Below, one piece after another: positions 3,726-21,511 of a stretch of 34,469 nt of DNA. How positions within the stretch are numbered: position 1 is the first letter of the stretch; the number at the start of each line of letters is the position of its first letter. Position numbers and translations under genes: made by a program. A model generated the notes under the pieces. It had not been told where the DNA came from, searched no databases, and saw nothing but the letters and a program-made list of their open reading frames with translations. The DNA is from a virus, in IMG/VR virus record IMGVR_UViG_3300036876_000038, positions 1 through 34,469 of that record; one strand, written 5' to 3'.

Positions 3726-4252
3726 GCTGCTTGCTCCACCAATTGATCAATGATTGATTGGCATTCAGTTCCGGCAAATTCAAAAGATTTAATGGTGCCG
3801 TGTTCGCTTAGAAGCTCTAAATTTTCTTGTCTTGATGTTGAGCGTTCATCTTTACCATAATATTTATTTAAAGCTTCAAAGTCGCATGCGTCGCCATAAT
3901 GTCCGCAATCAAAGCCGATCCAACTGTCATCACATGGAGTTGATAATAAATCTTTTAGGTGGTGTTGTTTACCGCCGAAAGTTAATCCATTATGGCAACT
4001 TATATCTAATCTATCATAACCAAATTCGCCGAATTCATCTGGGCATCCCCCGACTTTATTCGCAGGATGCAATGGGTGCAATGCAACGTATCCGCATCTT
4101 TGACCCATCTGATTTAAAACTATTAAATATTCATGCTCTTTATATGTCCCGCCGCCTTCGATCACTACCCATGGTTTTCCATCAACTGCGTCAATTACAG
4201 GATAAAATGGCTTATCGCCCTTTAGCTTTAATATTTCAGTAATACAACTCAT
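3722..4252 (-). CDS. Conserved phage hypothetical protein with GFDCGHYGD motif (176 aa)
   Basis: An N-terminal half with PWVVIEGGGTYKEHEYLIVL and CGYVALHPLHP, then CHNGLTFGG (about 86-94), then WIGFDCGHYGDACD (about 111-124). The order G-Y-V-x-(L)HP..., H-x-G-L-T-F/Y and W-x-G-F-D-C-x-H-x-G-D is one I recognise in many phage proteins of unknown function. The clustered Cys, His and Asp could form a metal site, which is inference. It starts at an ATGA overlap with the upstream gene and ends at one with the next. Confidence 0.7.
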   Translation of the reverse strand: MSCITEILKLKGDKPFYPVIDAVDGKPWVVIEGGGTYKEHEYLIVLNQMGQRCGYVALHPLHPANKVGGCPDEFGEFGYDRLDISCHNGLTFGGKQHHLKDLLSTPCDDSWIGFDCGHYGDACDFEALNKYYGKDERSTSRQENLELLSEHGTIKSFEFAGTECQSIIDQLVEQAA

Positions 4253-4479
4253 TTTTTTAACCCCCTATCAAAAAGCAAAGCACTGATATCGTGCTCAACC
4301 GCGTCTAGCATATGATTCTTAGTAAGATCATATGGATTGAACGCATTTAAACGCACGTCCTGGATTATTTCAAGGGCTTTTGTTAGTCCTTGCTTATAAC
4401 CTACACTGCGATCTTTATTCTTAAACGGAAAAGTTATACCGCTTATTAAGCACGTGTGTGTATCTTTTTCCATTTCCAT
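4249..4479 (-). CDS. Hypothetical protein (76 aa)
   Basis: Begins MEMEKDTHTCLISGITFPFK and ends ALLFDRGLKK. No recognised domain. A second in-frame ATG at codon 3 (MEKDTHTCLI) is a possible start. The stop overlaps the next ATG by 4 bases and its own start lies 2 bases from the upstream stop, so it belongs to the coupled run of small leftward genes. Confidence 0.55.
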   Translation of the reverse strand: MEMEKDTHTCLISGITFPFKNKDRSVGYKQGLTKALEIIQDVRLNAFNPYDLTKNHMLDAVEHDISALLFDRGLKK

Positions 4480-4481
4480 TA

Positions 4482-4937
4482 TTATTCCACCAAGAAAACT
4501 AGTTGTTTTTTATAAATCTCAAAATCAACTGCTGTTGATTTCCTGCGCTCTAATATTGATTTTCCATCCCAGCGAAAACCTAAGCGTAAATGTATTGATT
4601 TTGATTCTTGTGTTAGTACAAATCCCACGCCAAGTTCTGACTTGACCAATAAAAACATTTTTTCATTATTGGGGTCAAACATAGGCAAGACTGAATCGCC
4701 TTTTTTCCATCCTAACGTATAAGCTAAATCATAGCTTATACGCATTCGAACAAATTTTATTTCATTGTCATTTTTTTTATAGGAGGTAAATTCAACGCGG
4801 CATTCCTCACCTTGCAAAGAGTTTCTGTTTTGCATCCTTCCTGTGTTTATAGGAGCCCAGGAAATTGAATCTATCATATCGCTTAATGTTGATCTTTTAG
4901 TTGTTTGTGCTTTTGCTAAAGCTGCTCGATTTTTCAT
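4482..4937 (-). CDS. Hypothetical protein (151 aa)
   Basis: A basic N-terminus (MKNRAALAKAQTTKRSTLSD) is followed by alternating beta-like segments such as FVRMRISYDLAYTLGWKKGD (about 62-81), with a loop MFDPNNEKMF. The hydrophobic Y-x-L-A-x-x-L-G-W-x-x-G-D pattern is reminiscent of small swapped-hairpin (AbrB-like) DNA-binding folds, but that is a weak impression. AAAAGG lies 6 bases upstream of ATG. Follows its upstream neighbour after 11 bases. Confidence 0.55.
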   Translation of the reverse strand: MKNRAALAKAQTTKRSTLSDMIDSISWAPINTGRMQNRNSLQGEECRVEFTSYKKNDNEIKFVRMRISYDLAYTLGWKKGDSVLPMFDPNNEKMFLLVKSELGVGFVLTQESKSIHLRLGFRWDGKSILERRKSTAVDFEIYKKQLVFLVE

Positions 4938-8709: not shown

Positions 8710-8755
8710 ATTGTGTCAATCCTTGACGTAAAAACATTTATTACAATTATTACAA

Positions 8756-8923
8756 TTATTCTGTCAACTCCACTTTTGTGTTTTGTCTTGCAACACTACG
8801 CTCTAAAATAATCTTAACTTGTTCCGGTAACTTTATTTCATTCTGCACAGAAAGTATTTTTAGTTTCTTCCAACACTCTTTAGTCACACTAACATTTATT
8901 TTTTGTAGAAACTCTTTTGACAT
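8756..8923 (-). CDS. Arc/RHH-like small regulator (55 aa)
   Basis: Begins MSKEFLQKINVSVTKECWKK. A beta-like strand (KINVSVT) is followed by two helices (ECWKKLKILSVQNEIKLPEQ and VKIILERSVA), the ribbon-helix-helix order; I-N-V-S-V would be the DNA-contacting strand. AGGAAAT lies 8 bases before the ATG. Just after the stop there is a short direct repeat of TTACAATTA (about 8740-8758) that could be a binding site or chance. RHH assignment is by pattern. Confidence 0.6.
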   Translation of the reverse strand: MSKEFLQKINVSVTKECWKKLKILSVQNEIKLPEQVKIILERSVARQNTKVELTE

Positions 8924-14487: not shown

Positions 14488-16074
14488 ATGTTGTCAATAT
14501 CAGACTGCAGACGAGATTTTAACGCGCTACGTGATTCCTTTGCGCGTCAGGATTCGCAGCACATTGAATTCAAGGATGGAGAGACAATACTTTATGCACG
14601 CGATAAGAACAAAGTCTATATACCAAATGCAACTGGCGCACTTTTTCATAACGACAATACTTTTGTTCAACTCATTATGGGCCCATATGGATCTGGTAAA
14701 TCTACAATCTGCGTTAACAAGATTGTGGAGCATGCCTGCAGAATGCCCGTATGGCACAACGGACGCAGACGAGCTAAATGGCTCATTATACGAAACACAA
14801 GTGGCGAGCTACAATCCACCACCCTCCAAACATGGCTCACATGGTTTGGTGATCTTGGGGACATCAAGAAGCGACAAAAGCCCTTACTGACTTACGAGCA
14901 TACATTCAACGATGGTCATGGTTTAATTGAGCTTCAGTTAGTATTCATCGCATTAGATCGTGATGAAGATATAAGAAAGCTTAAATCAATTGAAGCGACT
15001 GGCGCATATATCAACGAATTATCCGAAGTTCCGCAAGCCGTACTTCATCATTTAATTGGACGTGTTAATGGTCGTTATCCTAGCCCAGCTTTTTGCAATC
15101 AGCCTTATTGGAGCGGCATTATTTGCGATACTAATCCACCCGATGAGGATCACTGGATATATCGAGACTTTGAGCTCAACCCTACGCCGAGCTATAAGAT
15201 CTTTCACCAACCGTCAGGCTTAATTGTTAATGCTGACGATGGAAGCTTTGCAAAAGACGCTGAAGGTAACTACATACAAAACCCTGAATGCGACAACTAT
15301 CCAAATCTATCAAAGGACTACTATGTCAAGCTTGCCGAGAAAAGATCTGAGGGCTTCATTAAAGTATATTGCGGCGGAAAGTATGGGTTGGTTGAGTCTG
15401 GCAAGCGTGTATATCCTGAGTATAATGACGACCTACACTCTGTACAAAGGCTCGATGCAATTCAAGGTTTACCTATCCATCTCGGTTGGGATTTTGGTCT
15501 TACACCTAGCTGCATCGTGGTACAAATCACGCCTCGTGGACAACTTAGAGTCTTAAGAGAATATACATCAGAGGACATGGGAATACGCACCTTTGCAAAG
15601 GGCATTGTATTGCCGGGATTAATCACTGACTTCGTGTACAACAAAGTAGGTGAGTCTGAAGCGGATCCGGCTGGTGCTGCAGGTGACATGATAATGGAAG
15701 AACTAAGCTGCATTGGAGAGCTTAATAACCTTGGTATTCTAACCAATGGTGCGAGCACTAATGATATTGATGTACGCCATAGTAGCGTGCGTTATTTCCT
15801 AAATTCAATGATCGATGGACAACCCGCATTTCTAATTTCACGCGAACATTGTCCGACATTGCGGAAAGGATTTATCAACGGCTATCACTTCAAGCGCTTA
15901 AGTATAAGTGGGGACGAACGTTATCAAGACAAGCCTAATAAAAATAAATTCAGTCACCCACACGATGGCTTGCAATACATCGCCATGAAGTTTGCCGCTG
16001 ACCGCATAATTGAATCGAAGATAAAAACCGAAGTTGTCGACATGTACAACCCTGCATTTAGATGGAGTAATTAA
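14488..16074 (+). CDS. terL: Terminase large subunit
   Basis: 528 residues. ATPase domain: Walker A GPYGSGKST at 65-73, a candidate Walker B with catalytic Glu in GAYINELSEV (172-181) and motif III-like CDTNPPDEDHW (213-223). C-terminal RNase H-like nuclease: D335 in LGWDFGLT, D393 in EADPAG and D493 in HPHDG as three metal-binding Asp. This packages DNA into the prohead and cuts concatemers. Length and plan fit P22-like gp2. AGGA lies about 10 bases before the ATG. A cluster of small genes separates it from the portal. Confidence 0.9.
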   Translation: MLSISDCRRDFNALRDSFARQDSQHIEFKDGETILYARDKNKVYIPNATGALFHNDNTFVQLIMGPYGSGKSTICVNKIVEHACRMPVWHNGRRRAKWLIIRNTSGELQSTTLQTWLTWFGDLGDIKKRQKPLLTYEHTFNDGHGLIELQLVFIALDRDEDIRKLKSIEATGAYINELSEVPQAVLHHLIGRVNGRYPSPAFCNQPYWSGIICDTNPPDEDHWIYRDFELNPTPSYKIFHQPSGLIVNADDGSFAKDAEGNYIQNPECDNYPNLSKDYYVKLAEKRSEGFIKVYCGGKYGLVESGKRVYPEYNDDLHSVQRLDAIQGLPIHLGWDFGLTPSCIVVQITPRGQLRVLREYTSEDMGIRTFAKGIVLPGLITDFVYNKVGESEADPAGAAGDMIMEELSCIGELNNLGILTNGASTNDIDVRHSSVRYFLNSMIDGQPAFLISREHCPTLRKGFINGYHFKRLSISGDERYQDKPNKNKFSHPHDGLQYIAMKFAADRIIESKIKTEVVDMYNPAFRWSN

Positions 16075-17383: not shown

Positions 17384-17653
17384 ATGCATTTTTTCGACGC
17401 TGTAAAAGAATTGTTGCAAGGTAAATTTGTGGCTCGTGTTGCTTGGGCTGTTTCTGGTGAATACGTTGCTCTTTTGCCAGGCATGCAGTATTTATGGAAA
17501 ATCATGCACCAACCAAACCCCGCTGCAGGCAATTGGATTCCACTTATGGAAGACATGTTAGCGGCTGACTGGGCGGTGGTTGACAAAGCGGCTGCAGCTG
17601 CAGCGGTGCCTGTAATTGAAGCTGTCGCGGTTGATGCTGTAGCGGCTGCTTAG
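17384..17653 (+). CDS. DUF2829 / Tad2-like protein (putative anti-Thoeris)
   Basis: 89 residues. The order F-D-A-V-K-E-L-L-Q-G-K-F-V-A-R-V-A-W (about 4-21), GEYVALLPG (about 25-33) and WIPLMEDMLAADWAVV (about 51-66) matches DUF2829 (opening F-x-A-L...G-K-x-V-A-R-x-x-W, closing P-x-x-x-D-M-L-A-x-D-W-x-V). DUF2829 includes Tad2, a phage protein that binds the signal molecule 1''-3' gcADPR and so blocks Thoeris defence. The last 25 residues are an Ala/Val-rich extension after the family domain. AAGGAG lies upstream of the ATG. The family call is good; anti-Thoeris action is inferred. Confidence 0.75.
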   Translation: MHFFDAVKELLQGKFVARVAWAVSGEYVALLPGMQYLWKIMHQPNPAAGNWIPLMEDMLAADWAVVDKAAAAAAVPVIEAVAVDAVAAA

Positions 17654-17667
17654 TGTTAAAATAACAA

Positions 17668-17880
17668 ATGATACTGGAAGCTCAAAAAGACATATTGCCC
17701 AATGGTGGCATTATGATCGAAGAGTCTCTGATTGTGCCGCAAGGCGAGACCAGCACAGCTACCCCTTGGATGGGATTCGATCGCCGGGGCTGGGTAACCA
17801 GAGAGGCTGCAGGTGAAATCCCTGCACAGTATCACCCTTTAAGCATCGGCCACTCAATTGGTTTAGAGTACGCGCCTTAA
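17668..17880 (+). CDS. Doubtful ORF (70 aa) overlapping the tRNA-like element
   Basis: Begins MILEAQKDILPNGGIMIEES and ends IGLEYAP. There is no ribosome site before the ATG, and the last 13 codons lie within the tRNA-like sequence at 17843-17918. The amino-acid pattern is not typical of a small protein. The stretch 17705-17737 contains a possible GTCTC/GAGAC hairpin with a GCC-GCAA-GGC cap, so it may be structured RNA or a degraded gene instead. Confidence 0.25.
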   Translation: MILEAQKDILPNGGIMIEESLIVPQGETSTATPWMGFDRRGWVTREAAGEIPAQYHPLSIGHSIGLEYAP

Positions 17881-17918
17881 AGAAGCGCGGTGTGGTGGTT
17901 CGATTCCACCCCTTTGCA
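17843..17918 (+). pseudogene. tRNA-like element, degenerate tRNA
   Basis: All four arms can be drawn. The D-arm is perfect: ACTC/GAGT (17852-17855 with 17866-17869) and an AATTGGTTTA loop with the conserved GG. The T-arm is perfect: GGTGG/CCACC with loop TTCGATT (17894-17910). The anticodon stem is perfect, CGCGC/GCGCG, but its loop is 9 bases (CTTAAAGAA), not 7. The acceptor GCATCGG/CCTTTGC pairs at 5 of 7, base 8 is C rather than T, and no CCA is encoded. The 5' half resembles an arginine tRNA. It is probably a decayed tRNA or a tRNA mimic. Confidence 0.6.
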
Positions 17919-18027
17919 AGACGTTTCACCTTACGCTTACGCGTTATAAGACCGGATTCTGTGGCGTGAGGTTTAGTTTAAAATACCAATACGGTAGCAA
18001 TTGGTAGGTAATTGGTAGTTGGTTATA
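17919..18027. promoter_or_regulatory. Hairpins between the tRNA relic and the zinc-finger gene
   Basis: ACCTTACGC (17928-17936) pairs with GCGTGAGGT (17964-17972) with one G-U pair, around a 27-base loop. TACCAAT (17984-17990) pairs with ATTGGTA (18000-18006), followed by repeats of AATTGGTAG. These could be remains of RNA genes or a leader for the next gene. No protein-coding reading is seen. Confidence 0.35.
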
Positions 18028-18045
18028 ATGACAAGGATATGTCGT

Positions 18046-18552
18046 GTGAAAAAAAAATATTTAGACGAATCATATTTAAAGGAATGCCATACTTGTCTTT
18101 TCATTTACGATACACCGTCTGTTTATTTTTCGAAAGACAAAACGACTAAGTCAAAACTATGCAAGATCTGCAAATCTTGTGATAAGAAACGCATAAAATT
18201 AAAATATGCTGAAAGAGCATACTTTAATATCCCAATCCGCTGCATTACTTGTAACAATATTTTCTTTGCATCTAAAGGTATTTTGAATCGTGGTAATGTA
18301 ATACATACCAATGATGGGAAATATTGCTCTCTAGCATGCGTCATACCAGGCGGCTTTGGTCGACCATGGAATGGTCAAAGACGGGGCGCAAATAATCCAA
18401 ATTGTAAATATAGTGAAGAGACCATTCGAAAAGCTAAACTTTTAATTAAACATGGAGCATCAATAAAAGAAATAGCTAAAACCTTGAGTATTGGAAGAAC
18501 CACTTTATCGAAAATAAAAAACAACAAGCGTTGGAGTCATATAGAAATTTAA
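18046..18552 (+). CDS. Zinc-finger and HTH protein, homing-endonuclease-like
   Basis: 168 residues. N-terminal CxxC pairs: ECHTC at about 14-18, CKICKSC at about 43-49 and CITCNN, plus KYCSLAC, suggest two zinc ribbons. The C-terminus (residues about 123-168), SEETIRKAKLLIKHGASIKE followed by IAKTLSIGRTTLSKIKNNK, is the HTH found at the end of phage HNH and NUMOD homing endonucleases. No clear HNH catalytic motif is visible. The GTG at 18046 has AAGGA 8 bases upstream; the longer ATG at 18028 lacks one. A free-standing mobile gene next to a tRNA relic is plausible. Confidence 0.6.
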   Translation: MKKKYLDESYLKECHTCLFIYDTPSVYFSKDKTTKSKLCKICKSCDKKRIKLKYAERAYFNIPIRCITCNNIFFASKGILNRGNVIHTNDGKYCSLACVIPGGFGRPWNGQRRGANNPNCKYSEETIRKAKLLIKHGASIKEIAKTLSIGRTTLSKIKNNKRWSHIEI

Positions 18553-18580: not shown

Positions 18581-20767
18581 ATGGAAAAACAAACCACCGA
18601 CGTCAACAATTTGTTATCAAACGACGAATTAAACGAGATGGAAGAGCGTCGAATAGACGAACTTAATATTGCCGGCGTCGATGAAAAGGTTGTATTAGAA
18701 CGCACGAATAAAAACCTTGAAGCCTGGACAGGTTATTTTCACGAAAACATAACACGCGGTAAAGACGATATGAACTTCGTCTTGAGAGACCAATGGACGG
18801 CGGTTGAGCGTTCAGAGTTCACGCGTTTATTTAAGCCTGCGATGACGTTTAACAAACTTTATGATGCTACGAAAAAGATCGCAGGAGAGCAACGTAAGAA
18901 CAAGCCTGACTTGATAGTACGATCTTTAACGGGTAAGGCAACACAAGAGCAAATAAACTTACGAGCTGACTTAGTAAGGACCATATCTTATCAATCACAG
19001 AACGATTTAGTTTATCAAACAGCATTTAGATCAGCCCTCATGATGGGATTCGGTGCCTTCCAGGTTATGATAGACTTTGAAAACGCAAATAGCTTTAACA
19101 AAATAATAAAATACGACCTTATCCCTGACGCCACATTATGTTCATGGGATCCAACCGCTACAAAGCCGCATAAAGGTGATGGCAACTTTTGTTCTAGGCG
19201 TTTCATATTCACGCGTGACGAGTTTTTTGCAACCTACCCTTACGTAAGCAACCCGGTATCCTATTGTGATCCATACATACTACTAGACTTCCAGTGGATG
19301 ACCCGCGACACCATTGTTGTGTGTGACGAGTTTGTCAAAGAATGGTATCCGGTAAAGATCGTTAAGCTTTCTAACGGTGAGGTAATGACGGAAGATGAAT
19401 GGACGAACCGCTCAAAGAGATTCGAGGACAATAGAGAATTTGTTGAGGGTTCGATCGTTGGAGAGATTATTACTCGTGAAATACCTAAAATTGTTGCTAG
19501 TCGCCAAACTCAAGATTATAGAATTATGCATTATCGAATGATCCGTGACAGGATTATTGACTTTTCCGAATGGCCTTCTAAAAACTTACCTATTCCTTTT
19601 GTAGACGGTGATAGTTACTGGGTTGAAGGTAGACAATACACAAAATCATTTATTCATGAGGCGCGTGATGCTCAAAAGTTTATTAATTATGTTGGCTCTG
19701 AAATTGCTGCTGAAATTAAGAATCGTCGACGTGAGCAATGGGTGGGCACTCCAGACAATATTAGCGGTTATGAGCAAGAGTGGAGAAACCCAGAACAACA
19801 AATTGGTATTATTCGTGCGAAACCAGACCCCAAGACTGGGCAATTGCCGCAAAAGATGCCTGCATGGGACTTGTCACCGGCACTTATTCAAAATTTCCAG
19901 CGCGGAACGCAAGATATTAGAGAAATACTGGGTTTTAGCGAGTCAGAACAATTACAAGGTAAAGACATTTCAGGGAAGGCACGACGCGAGCGAAAACTAG
20001 AAGGTTCGATGTCGGCTTATGTATTTTTTGATAATTTAAACCAAGCAATCGAACAAGGCGGTCGGATCGTAAATGATTTATTACCATACATTATTGGCGA
20101 AGACGAGCGCCATATGGTGGTCTCTAAAAAAGACGGCAACACAGAGACAATTATCTTAAACCACATGGGTGACAACGGCGTAATACGCAACCAAATCGAA
20201 GCGGGTGAGTTCGATGTAGAGATTGATACCGGTCCCAGCTTTGCTGTACAAAAAGAAGTGGCGCTGGAATTCTTACAACAAACGCTTCAAGTATTCCCAC
20301 AATCGTTCCCACTCATTGCGGATCTATGGGCTAAAAACCTTGACGTACAATTCATGCCGCAAATTGCTGACCGCTTTAAATCTATGGTTCCACCTGAAAT
20401 ACTTGCGAAGGAAGAAGGCAAAGAACCACCACCAAAGCAACCCAACCCGCAAGAAATGATGATGCAACAAGAAATGAAAATGAAAGAGCAAAAGATGCAA
20501 ATTGAAGAGCAAAAGATGCAAATTGAAGGCCAGCAATTAATGGAACGCGCAGAGGAACTCAAGATACGTAAAGAAAAGCATTTACTAGAACAAGCTGAAA
20601 TGATCCTCAAAGCGAAGCATGACACATTAAAGCTTGGTCTTGACGAACAGAAAAATGCTATTGAGCTTGAAAAGATGGATCACGATTTTACGCATAAAAT
20701 CTCTGCGTTAATGGCAGATATCCATAAACACCATAATCCACAAGAGAAGAAGGAAAGTAAAAAATAG
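18581..20767 (+). CDS. P22-like portal protein
   Basis: 728 residues, against 725 for P22 gp1. The opening MEKQTTDVNNLLSNDELNEM, the strand-helix region ENITRGKDDMNFVLRDQWTA, and RPAMTFNKLYDATKKIAGEQ-type pattern (here FKPAMTFNKLYDATKKIAGE) fit the P22 portal family. Near residues 620-720 is a long Met, Gln, Lys and Glu-rich coiled coil with the repeat EQKMQIE, the barrel-type C-terminus. The portal forms the dodecameric DNA channel at one vertex. AAGGA lies 10 bases before the ATG. It has the position of gp1 in P22 between terminase and scaffold. Confidence 0.88.
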   Translation: MEKQTTDVNNLLSNDELNEMEERRIDELNIAGVDEKVVLERTNKNLEAWTGYFHENITRGKDDMNFVLRDQWTAVERSEFTRLFKPAMTFNKLYDATKKIAGEQRKNKPDLIVRSLTGKATQEQINLRADLVRTISYQSQNDLVYQTAFRSALMMGFGAFQVMIDFENANSFNKIIKYDLIPDATLCSWDPTATKPHKGDGNFCSRRFIFTRDEFFATYPYVSNPVSYCDPYILLDFQWMTRDTIVVCDEFVKEWYPVKIVKLSNGEVMTEDEWTNRSKRFEDNREFVEGSIVGEIITREIPKIVASRQTQDYRIMHYRMIRDRIIDFSEWPSKNLPIPFVDGDSYWVEGRQYTKSFIHEARDAQKFINYVGSEIAAEIKNRRREQWVGTPDNISGYEQEWRNPEQQIGIIRAKPDPKTGQLPQKMPAWDLSPALIQNFQRGTQDIREILGFSESEQLQGKDISGKARRERKLEGSMSAYVFFDNLNQAIEQGGRIVNDLLPYIIGEDERHMVVSKKDGNTETIILNHMGDNGVIRNQIEAGEFDVEIDTGPSFAVQKEVALEFLQQTLQVFPQSFPLIADLWAKNLDVQFMPQIADRFKSMVPPEILAKEEGKEPPPKQPNPQEMMMQQEMKMKEQKMQIEEQKMQIEGQQLMERAEELKIRKEKHLLEQAEMILKAKHDTLKLGLDEQKNAIELEKMDHDFTHKISALMADIHKHHNPQEKKESKK

Positions 20768-20779
20768 GGATTAAATTAA

Positions 20780-21511
20780 ATGGACTTAATCTTTAACGAA
20801 GACTGTCTGGAAGGCATGAATAGGATAGAATCAAAATCAATTGATATGATTTTGTGCGACCTTCCATATGGAGTAACCAAAAATTCATGGGATGTACCAT
20901 TGAATTTAGACATCTTATGGAGTCATTATTCACGGGTAATTAAAGATAATGGCGCTATAGTATTGTTTTCTCAGCAACCATTTACTTCGACATTAGTTCT
21001 AAGTAACCCCGAATTGTTCAGATATGAATTAATCTGGAAAAAATCAAAATCAACTGGATTTTTGAATGCCAAAAAATGCCCTTTGAGAGAGCATGAAAAC
21101 ATTTTAATTTTTTACAAAAAACTTCCCACCTACAATCCTCAGCTATATAACAAAGATCCTAAAAACATTATGGCGAAAAAGATTAGCGCGCAATCCCCTT
21201 GCTACGGAAAATTCAATAATATTAGCTTAAGAGGCATACCCATAGAGCTTGGATATCCTAGAAGTATTATTGAGATATCTTCTACGCAAGGATCACACCC
21301 TACAGAAAAGCCAATTTCATTATGCGAATATTTAATTAACACTTATTCCAACAAAGATGAGTTAATTTTAGATAACTGCATGGGATCTGGATCAACTGCA
21401 CTCGCTTGCCTGAAGACTGGACGCAAATTTATTGGATTCGAATTAAATAAAAAATATTACGATATTTCGCTAGAAAGAATTAAGAATTGTAAAGAATCTA
21501 TACCTATATAG
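20780..21511 (+). CDS. DNA methyltransferase (N6/N4-type)
   Basis: 243 residues. Motif IV DLPY at 27-30 (in place of DPPY), motif X-like HPTEKP at 173-178 and motif I DNCMGSGST at 198-206 with a following FIGFEL, so the order IV then I makes it a beta-class N6-adenine or N4-cytosine methyltransferase (N6_N4_Mtase family). It likely methylates the phage genome against host restriction, or modifies host DNA. No matching endonuclease is present. It sits between portal and scaffold, where P22 has no such gene, and is more AT-rich than its neighbours, so it is a moron-type insertion. Confidence 0.88.
   Translation: MDLIFNEDCLEGMNRIESKSIDMILCDLPYGVTKNSWDVPLNLDILWSHYSRVIKDNGAIVLFSQQPFTSTLVLSNPELFRYELIWKKSKSTGFLNAKKCPLREHENILIFYKKLPTYNPQLYNKDPKNIMAKKISAQSPCYGKFNNISLRGIPIELGYPRSIIEISSTQGSHPTEKPISLCEYLINTYSNKDELILDNCMGSGSTALACLKTGRKFIGFELNKKYYDISLERIKNCKESIPI

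Follow-up and report, generated by a model that had tools for sequence, protein, structure and literature searches.

A Tad2-fold gene maintained beside a P22-like portal gene lacks the canonical ligand-loop motifs

Results

The gene and its domain

The window analysed here is one IMG/VR virus record in its entirety (34,469 bases) and encodes a P22-like coat protein and a P22-like portal protein. Between the genes for the terminase large subunit (TerL) and the portal, where an earlier sequence-only reading had placed it, lies a short ORF with a good ribosome-binding site, AAGGAGAAG standing 5' of its ATG (Table 1). Among its relatives, dN/dS exceeded 1 in none of the 888 pairs with usable dS (median 0.37; approximately 0-0.2 in most of the closest pairs). 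Therefore, the ORF is a translated gene, and it is under purifying selection.

Table 1. Features of the window around the Tad2-like gene
Feature	Position	Strand	Basis or remark
Terminase large subunit (TerL)	14488-16074	+	Gene annotation
Upstream "NFPGQ" ORF, 84 aa	17087-17341	+	Modelled fold like LME-1 capsid chain orf16 (PDB 9eg4_H)
Tad2-like (PF11195) ORF, 89 aa	17384-17653	+	ATG start, TAG stop
Tad2-like domain, residues 1-66	17384-17581	+	Pfam match, AlphaFold model
Start of beta1-beta2 loop, W21-A22-V23-S24	17444-17455	+	Canonical counterpart W-N-G-K
Clade motif W38-K39-I40...P44...A47-A48-G49-N50, beta3 and beta3-beta4 loop	17495-17533	+	Clade versus canonical alignment
L54-M55-E56-D57	17543-17554	+	Canonical counterpart S-Q-T-D
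Ala/Val-rich C-terminal tail, residues ~68-89	17585-17650	+	Low pLDDT, differs among relatives
tRNA gene or remnant	17843-17918	+	Rfam RF00005
Cys-rich ORF	18019-18552	+	C-terminal helix-turn-helix (PF02796, 1.3e-6)
Portal protein	18581-20767	+	phrog_156, P22-like
N6/N4 DNA methyltransferase	20780-21511	+	PF01555, 3.2e-27

The sequence-only reading had assigned the product to DUF2829, the family of the anti-Thoeris protein Tad2, and both peptide stretches that it quoted occur in the product as written. The assignment is borne out by profile and by fold. PF11195 (Tad2-like, the current name of DUF2829) matched residues 1-66 over profile positions 1-73 of 73, with E=2.8e-9 and a score of 37.8 bits (cut-off 25). 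The same profile matched all 49 aligned relatives, none of which had any other Pfam match. The AlphaFold model reached a mean pLDDT of 84.8, block values within the domain being 85-97, with helices at residues 3-11 and 55-59 and strands at 15-18, 27-30, 37-40 and 63-66. Its strong PDB matches were Tad2/AcrIIA7 structures only, with Z scores of 9.2-10.4 and the next best at 3.8. No virion protein appeared among the Foldseek and VIA-align matches listed for the model, which does not exclude a virion role. The Ala/Val tail noted earlier is also real; it is a variable extension of low confidence, with a pLDDT of 55-58 and a sequence that varies among relatives, many of which end in ...EAA or ...DAA.

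Relatives and sampling

Searches with the protein's own sequence, by tblastn in phages and in viral contigs, returned no relatives. The portal protein was used as bait instead and yielded 80 related viral contigs. A profile search of this set gave 57 Tad2-like ORFs, a count in which the window's own record figures twice and one ORF lies elsewhere on the opposite strand. A second route, a search by the clade motif described below plus one locus from a genome collection, provided 79 loci for analysis, some of them on contigs that overlap the portal route. In the genome collection, the portal search of contigs had no match and the clade motif had one, on a contig of 34 kb from a MAG assigned to Planctomycetota. 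This hit is not taken to indicate a host: PF11195 occurred in only 2 of 392 sampled Planctomycetota genomes, that MAG included, and the contig is phage-sized.

The ligand loops and a clade-specific motif

According to a review (PMC12043709), the loops beta1-beta2, beta3-beta4 and beta4-alpha3 together with strand beta4 lie at the gcADPR pocket of Tad2, and cyclic dinucleotides are bound at an insertion between beta2 and beta5. We set 60 distinct canonical relatives against 94 distinct sequences from the window's clade. In the canonical set, R18, W21, N22, G23, W56, S59, Q60, D62, D67 and W68 (canonical numbering) were invariant. The W-N-G of the beta1-beta2 loop occurred in 60/60 canonical relatives and 0/94 clade members; a W-N-G-K pattern was part of the scan behind the canonical set, which is therefore biased toward it, but in 20 of the 60 the K is missing, so that this pattern cannot have selected them, and all of them have W-N-G. 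Likewise, the S-Q-T-D of the beta4-alpha3 loop was found in 56/60 canonical relatives and in no clade member. The window protein has W-A-V and L-M-E-D at these places, and in the clade the information at positions 22 and 23 is limited to about 0.9 bit, among the lowest values in the domain. The long beta2-beta5 insertion of the cyclic-dinucleotide-binding Tad2 proteins is also absent from the window's domain of 66 aa.

The clade retains R18, W21 and the D....DW core, and the window protein has R18, W21, D57, D62 and W63. Moreover, the clade has conserved residues of its own. W-K-[IV] occurred in 86 of the 94 members and N-A-G-N in 77, each against none of the 60 canonical relatives. W38, K39, I40, P44, A48, G49 and N50 carry 3.7-4.2 bits in the clade, while position 47 is A in the window and N in 83/94 members.

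SPO1 Tad2 (gp34.65; PDB 8sme, 8smf, 8smg) shares the fold, at 28% identity and Z 9.4-9.6 over 65 residues, as well as the R..W and D..A.DW core. Compared with it, the window protein lacks W-N-G-K and S-Q-T-D and has a shorter beta2-beta3 segment. MoTad2/ModTad2 (8v3e, 9eib; Z 9.6-9.8, 32% identity), which binds His-ADPR (PMC13299392), has the W-N-G-K loop that the window protein lacks. SptTad2 and HgmTad2/AcrIIA7 (8wjd, 8kbi, 8kbj, 8kbk; Z 9.2-10.4) share the fold but possess the long beta2-beta5 insertion.

A stable pair in a variable interval

In the motif route, the portal gene lay downstream on the same strand in all 68 loci with more than 1.5 kb of downstream sequence (median distance 91.5 nt), and the NFPGQ ORF lay within 600 nt upstream in 64 of 71 loci. 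The 68 loci are not independent because they share common descent; the portal adjacency shows long maintenance, not 68 separate events. In one locus (L070) the order is reversed, with the Tad2-like ORF (4050-4295) ahead of the NFPGQ ORF (4574-4825). The sequence-only reading had described the interval between terminase and portal as an accessory pocket that may contain other counter-defence genes. The description suits the other window ORFs of the gap, with recurrences in just 1-16 of the 61 loci, but not the Tad2-like gene (47/61) and its NFPGQ neighbour (48/61), which form a stable pair in an otherwise variable gap. As for other counter-defence genes, none was recognised in the gap, and PADLOC returned no match.

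The model of the NFPGQ ORF (mean pLDDT 88) matched the LME-1 phage capsid chain orf16 with Z 10.0, the next match standing at 4.1, and this resemblance makes a capsid role likely. By sequence, the two reached only E=0.52, and the window copy had no Pfam or PHROG match.

Several other elements lie near the pair. The tRNA-like element scored 36.9 bits in Rfam against a gathering score of 29; it was not called by ARAGORN, has a 9-base anticodon loop in its fold, and overlaps the 3' end of an ORF at 17668-17880. One relative (L010) has a tRNA-Phe (gaa) at 8746-8823, between the same two genes. The Cys-rich ORF, located after the Tad2-like gene and before the portal, recurs in only 2 of 61 loci. 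The methyltransferase gene lies immediately 3' of the portal gene.

Tad2-like genes elsewhere in phages provide a reference for this position. The SPO1 Tad2 gene sits in a run of small genes, whereas the window gene stands next to that for the portal. Pseudomonas phage Skulduggery carries a Tad2-like domain in SKUL_8 (phrog_872), in the TerL-portal interval of a genome whose portal is also PHROG 156; SKUL_8 differs in its length of 164 aa, its additional N-terminal part, its retained W-N-G and the gene that separates it from the portal. A phrog_872-type relative of the Skulduggery gene lies within the head module of phiAH14a, and IME10, Louie and a Vibrio phage have canonical Tad2-like genes near lysis or terminase genes. 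Many phages of the window's group (L102, L103, L104, L105, L106 and L096) have a second Tad2-like gene elsewhere, whose product of roughly 125-160 aa has two mini-domains in tandem and likewise lacks W-N-G; in the window record, none was found at Pfam level.

Divergence and presence along the portal tree

Across 32 loci, mean identity was 45% for the Tad2-like gene, 61% for its NFPGQ neighbour and 70% for the portal, and the divergence of the Tad2-like gene followed that of the portal (Mantel r 0.71). In the tree built from portal sequences, 55 of the 68 rows carry the gene and 13 lack it, a distribution that requires 5 presence changes (at least 4-5). Several lineages without it still have the NFPGQ neighbour and the portal.

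Discussion

The product of 17384-17653 is probably a distinct variant rather than a standard Tad2. The sequence-only reading had it trap the Thoeris signal 1''-3' gcADPR. Such trapping is unsupported because W-N-G and S-Q-T-D, which belong to loops described as lining the pocket, are missing from the window protein and from 94/94 clade members; this is an argument at the level of the loops described in PMC12043709 rather than of contact residues. A canonical Tad2 acting against type I Thoeris would fit the PF11195 score over the curated cut-off, the match of the model to SPO1 Tad2 with gcADPR (8smf_H, Z 9.4, 28% identity) and the retained R18, W21, D57, D62 and W63. Nevertheless, with both loop motifs gone and positions 22-23 hardly constrained, we regard it as very unlikely.

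We tentatively favour the reading that the protein is a ligand sponge of Tad2 fold that has been remodelled and is expressed along with the head genes. On this view, a Tad2-fold protein that has diverged and whose pocket has been rebuilt is encoded by a stable, mostly vertically inherited head-module gene, carried by uncultured phages of a P22-like group. It may still act as a small-molecule sponge, presumably oligomeric and serving counter-defence, whose ligand would be one that canonical Tad2 proteins bind differently or not at all, and it would be produced together with the portal, probably late. The conserved residues of the clade fall in beta3 and the beta3-beta4 loop, near the gcADPR pocket region of PMC12043709, which by sequence would favour such a sponge, as would a modelled Tad2 fold with no competing fold match. 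Purifying selection on a Tad2-like gene also counts for it. By analogy, so may the canonical Tad2-like genes in late modules of other phages and the finding that at least one TIR NADase detects portal proteins (SpbK-YonE, PMC12847820). On the other hand, the loss of the canonical invariant N22, G23 and Q60 (numbering of that alignment) counts against a sponge and makes ligand binding of any kind no more than putative, and the stable portal-side position and the divergence that follows the portal, as in structural genes, count against it as well. A narrower version, a sponge of new ligand specificity in a capsid-portal cassette, co-made with a portal that would be the kind of trigger a TIR-type NADase senses in SpbK-YonE, seems improbable to us.

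The Tad2 fold may alternatively have been co-opted for virion assembly, the product being an accessory protein of the head or portal, or else a minor component of the capsid. The fixed position between an ORF modelled like LME-1 orf16 and the portal, the divergence in step with the portal and the disappearance of the ligand-loop motifs from the entire clade all point this way. However, the gene is missing from 13 of the 68 portal-tree lineages, several of which retain the upstream partner and the portal, and it diverges faster than either neighbour; this faster divergence and the presence changes resemble what a counter-defence gene would show rather than a core component of the virion. The loci, being of common descent, do not represent independent events, and the listed fold matches contain no virion protein. 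We consider assembly rather unlikely, though the main alternative. There is also a slim chance that the protein targets a nucleic acid or a host protein, as an anti-CRISPR-like inhibitor or a regulator would. AcrIIA7, by its PDB name an inhibitor of type II CRISPR-Cas, shares the Tad2 fold, and weak matches to phrog_643, named "transcriptional regulator", occur in 21 of 49 members. But that name is a label and not a test, and the AcrIIA7 structures were solved with cADPR and cGG, so that the Tad2 fold is a ligand binder in AcrIIA7 too.

Automatic annotation would label 17384-17653 "anti-Thoeris". The PF11195 label alone does not imply gcADPR sequestration, because a whole clade keeps the fold without the signature ligand-loop residues. 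If the remodelled sponge still binds a ligand, the range of specificities of the sponge fold would be broader than known; if the protein is instead a virion part, the Tad2 fold would have been exapted.
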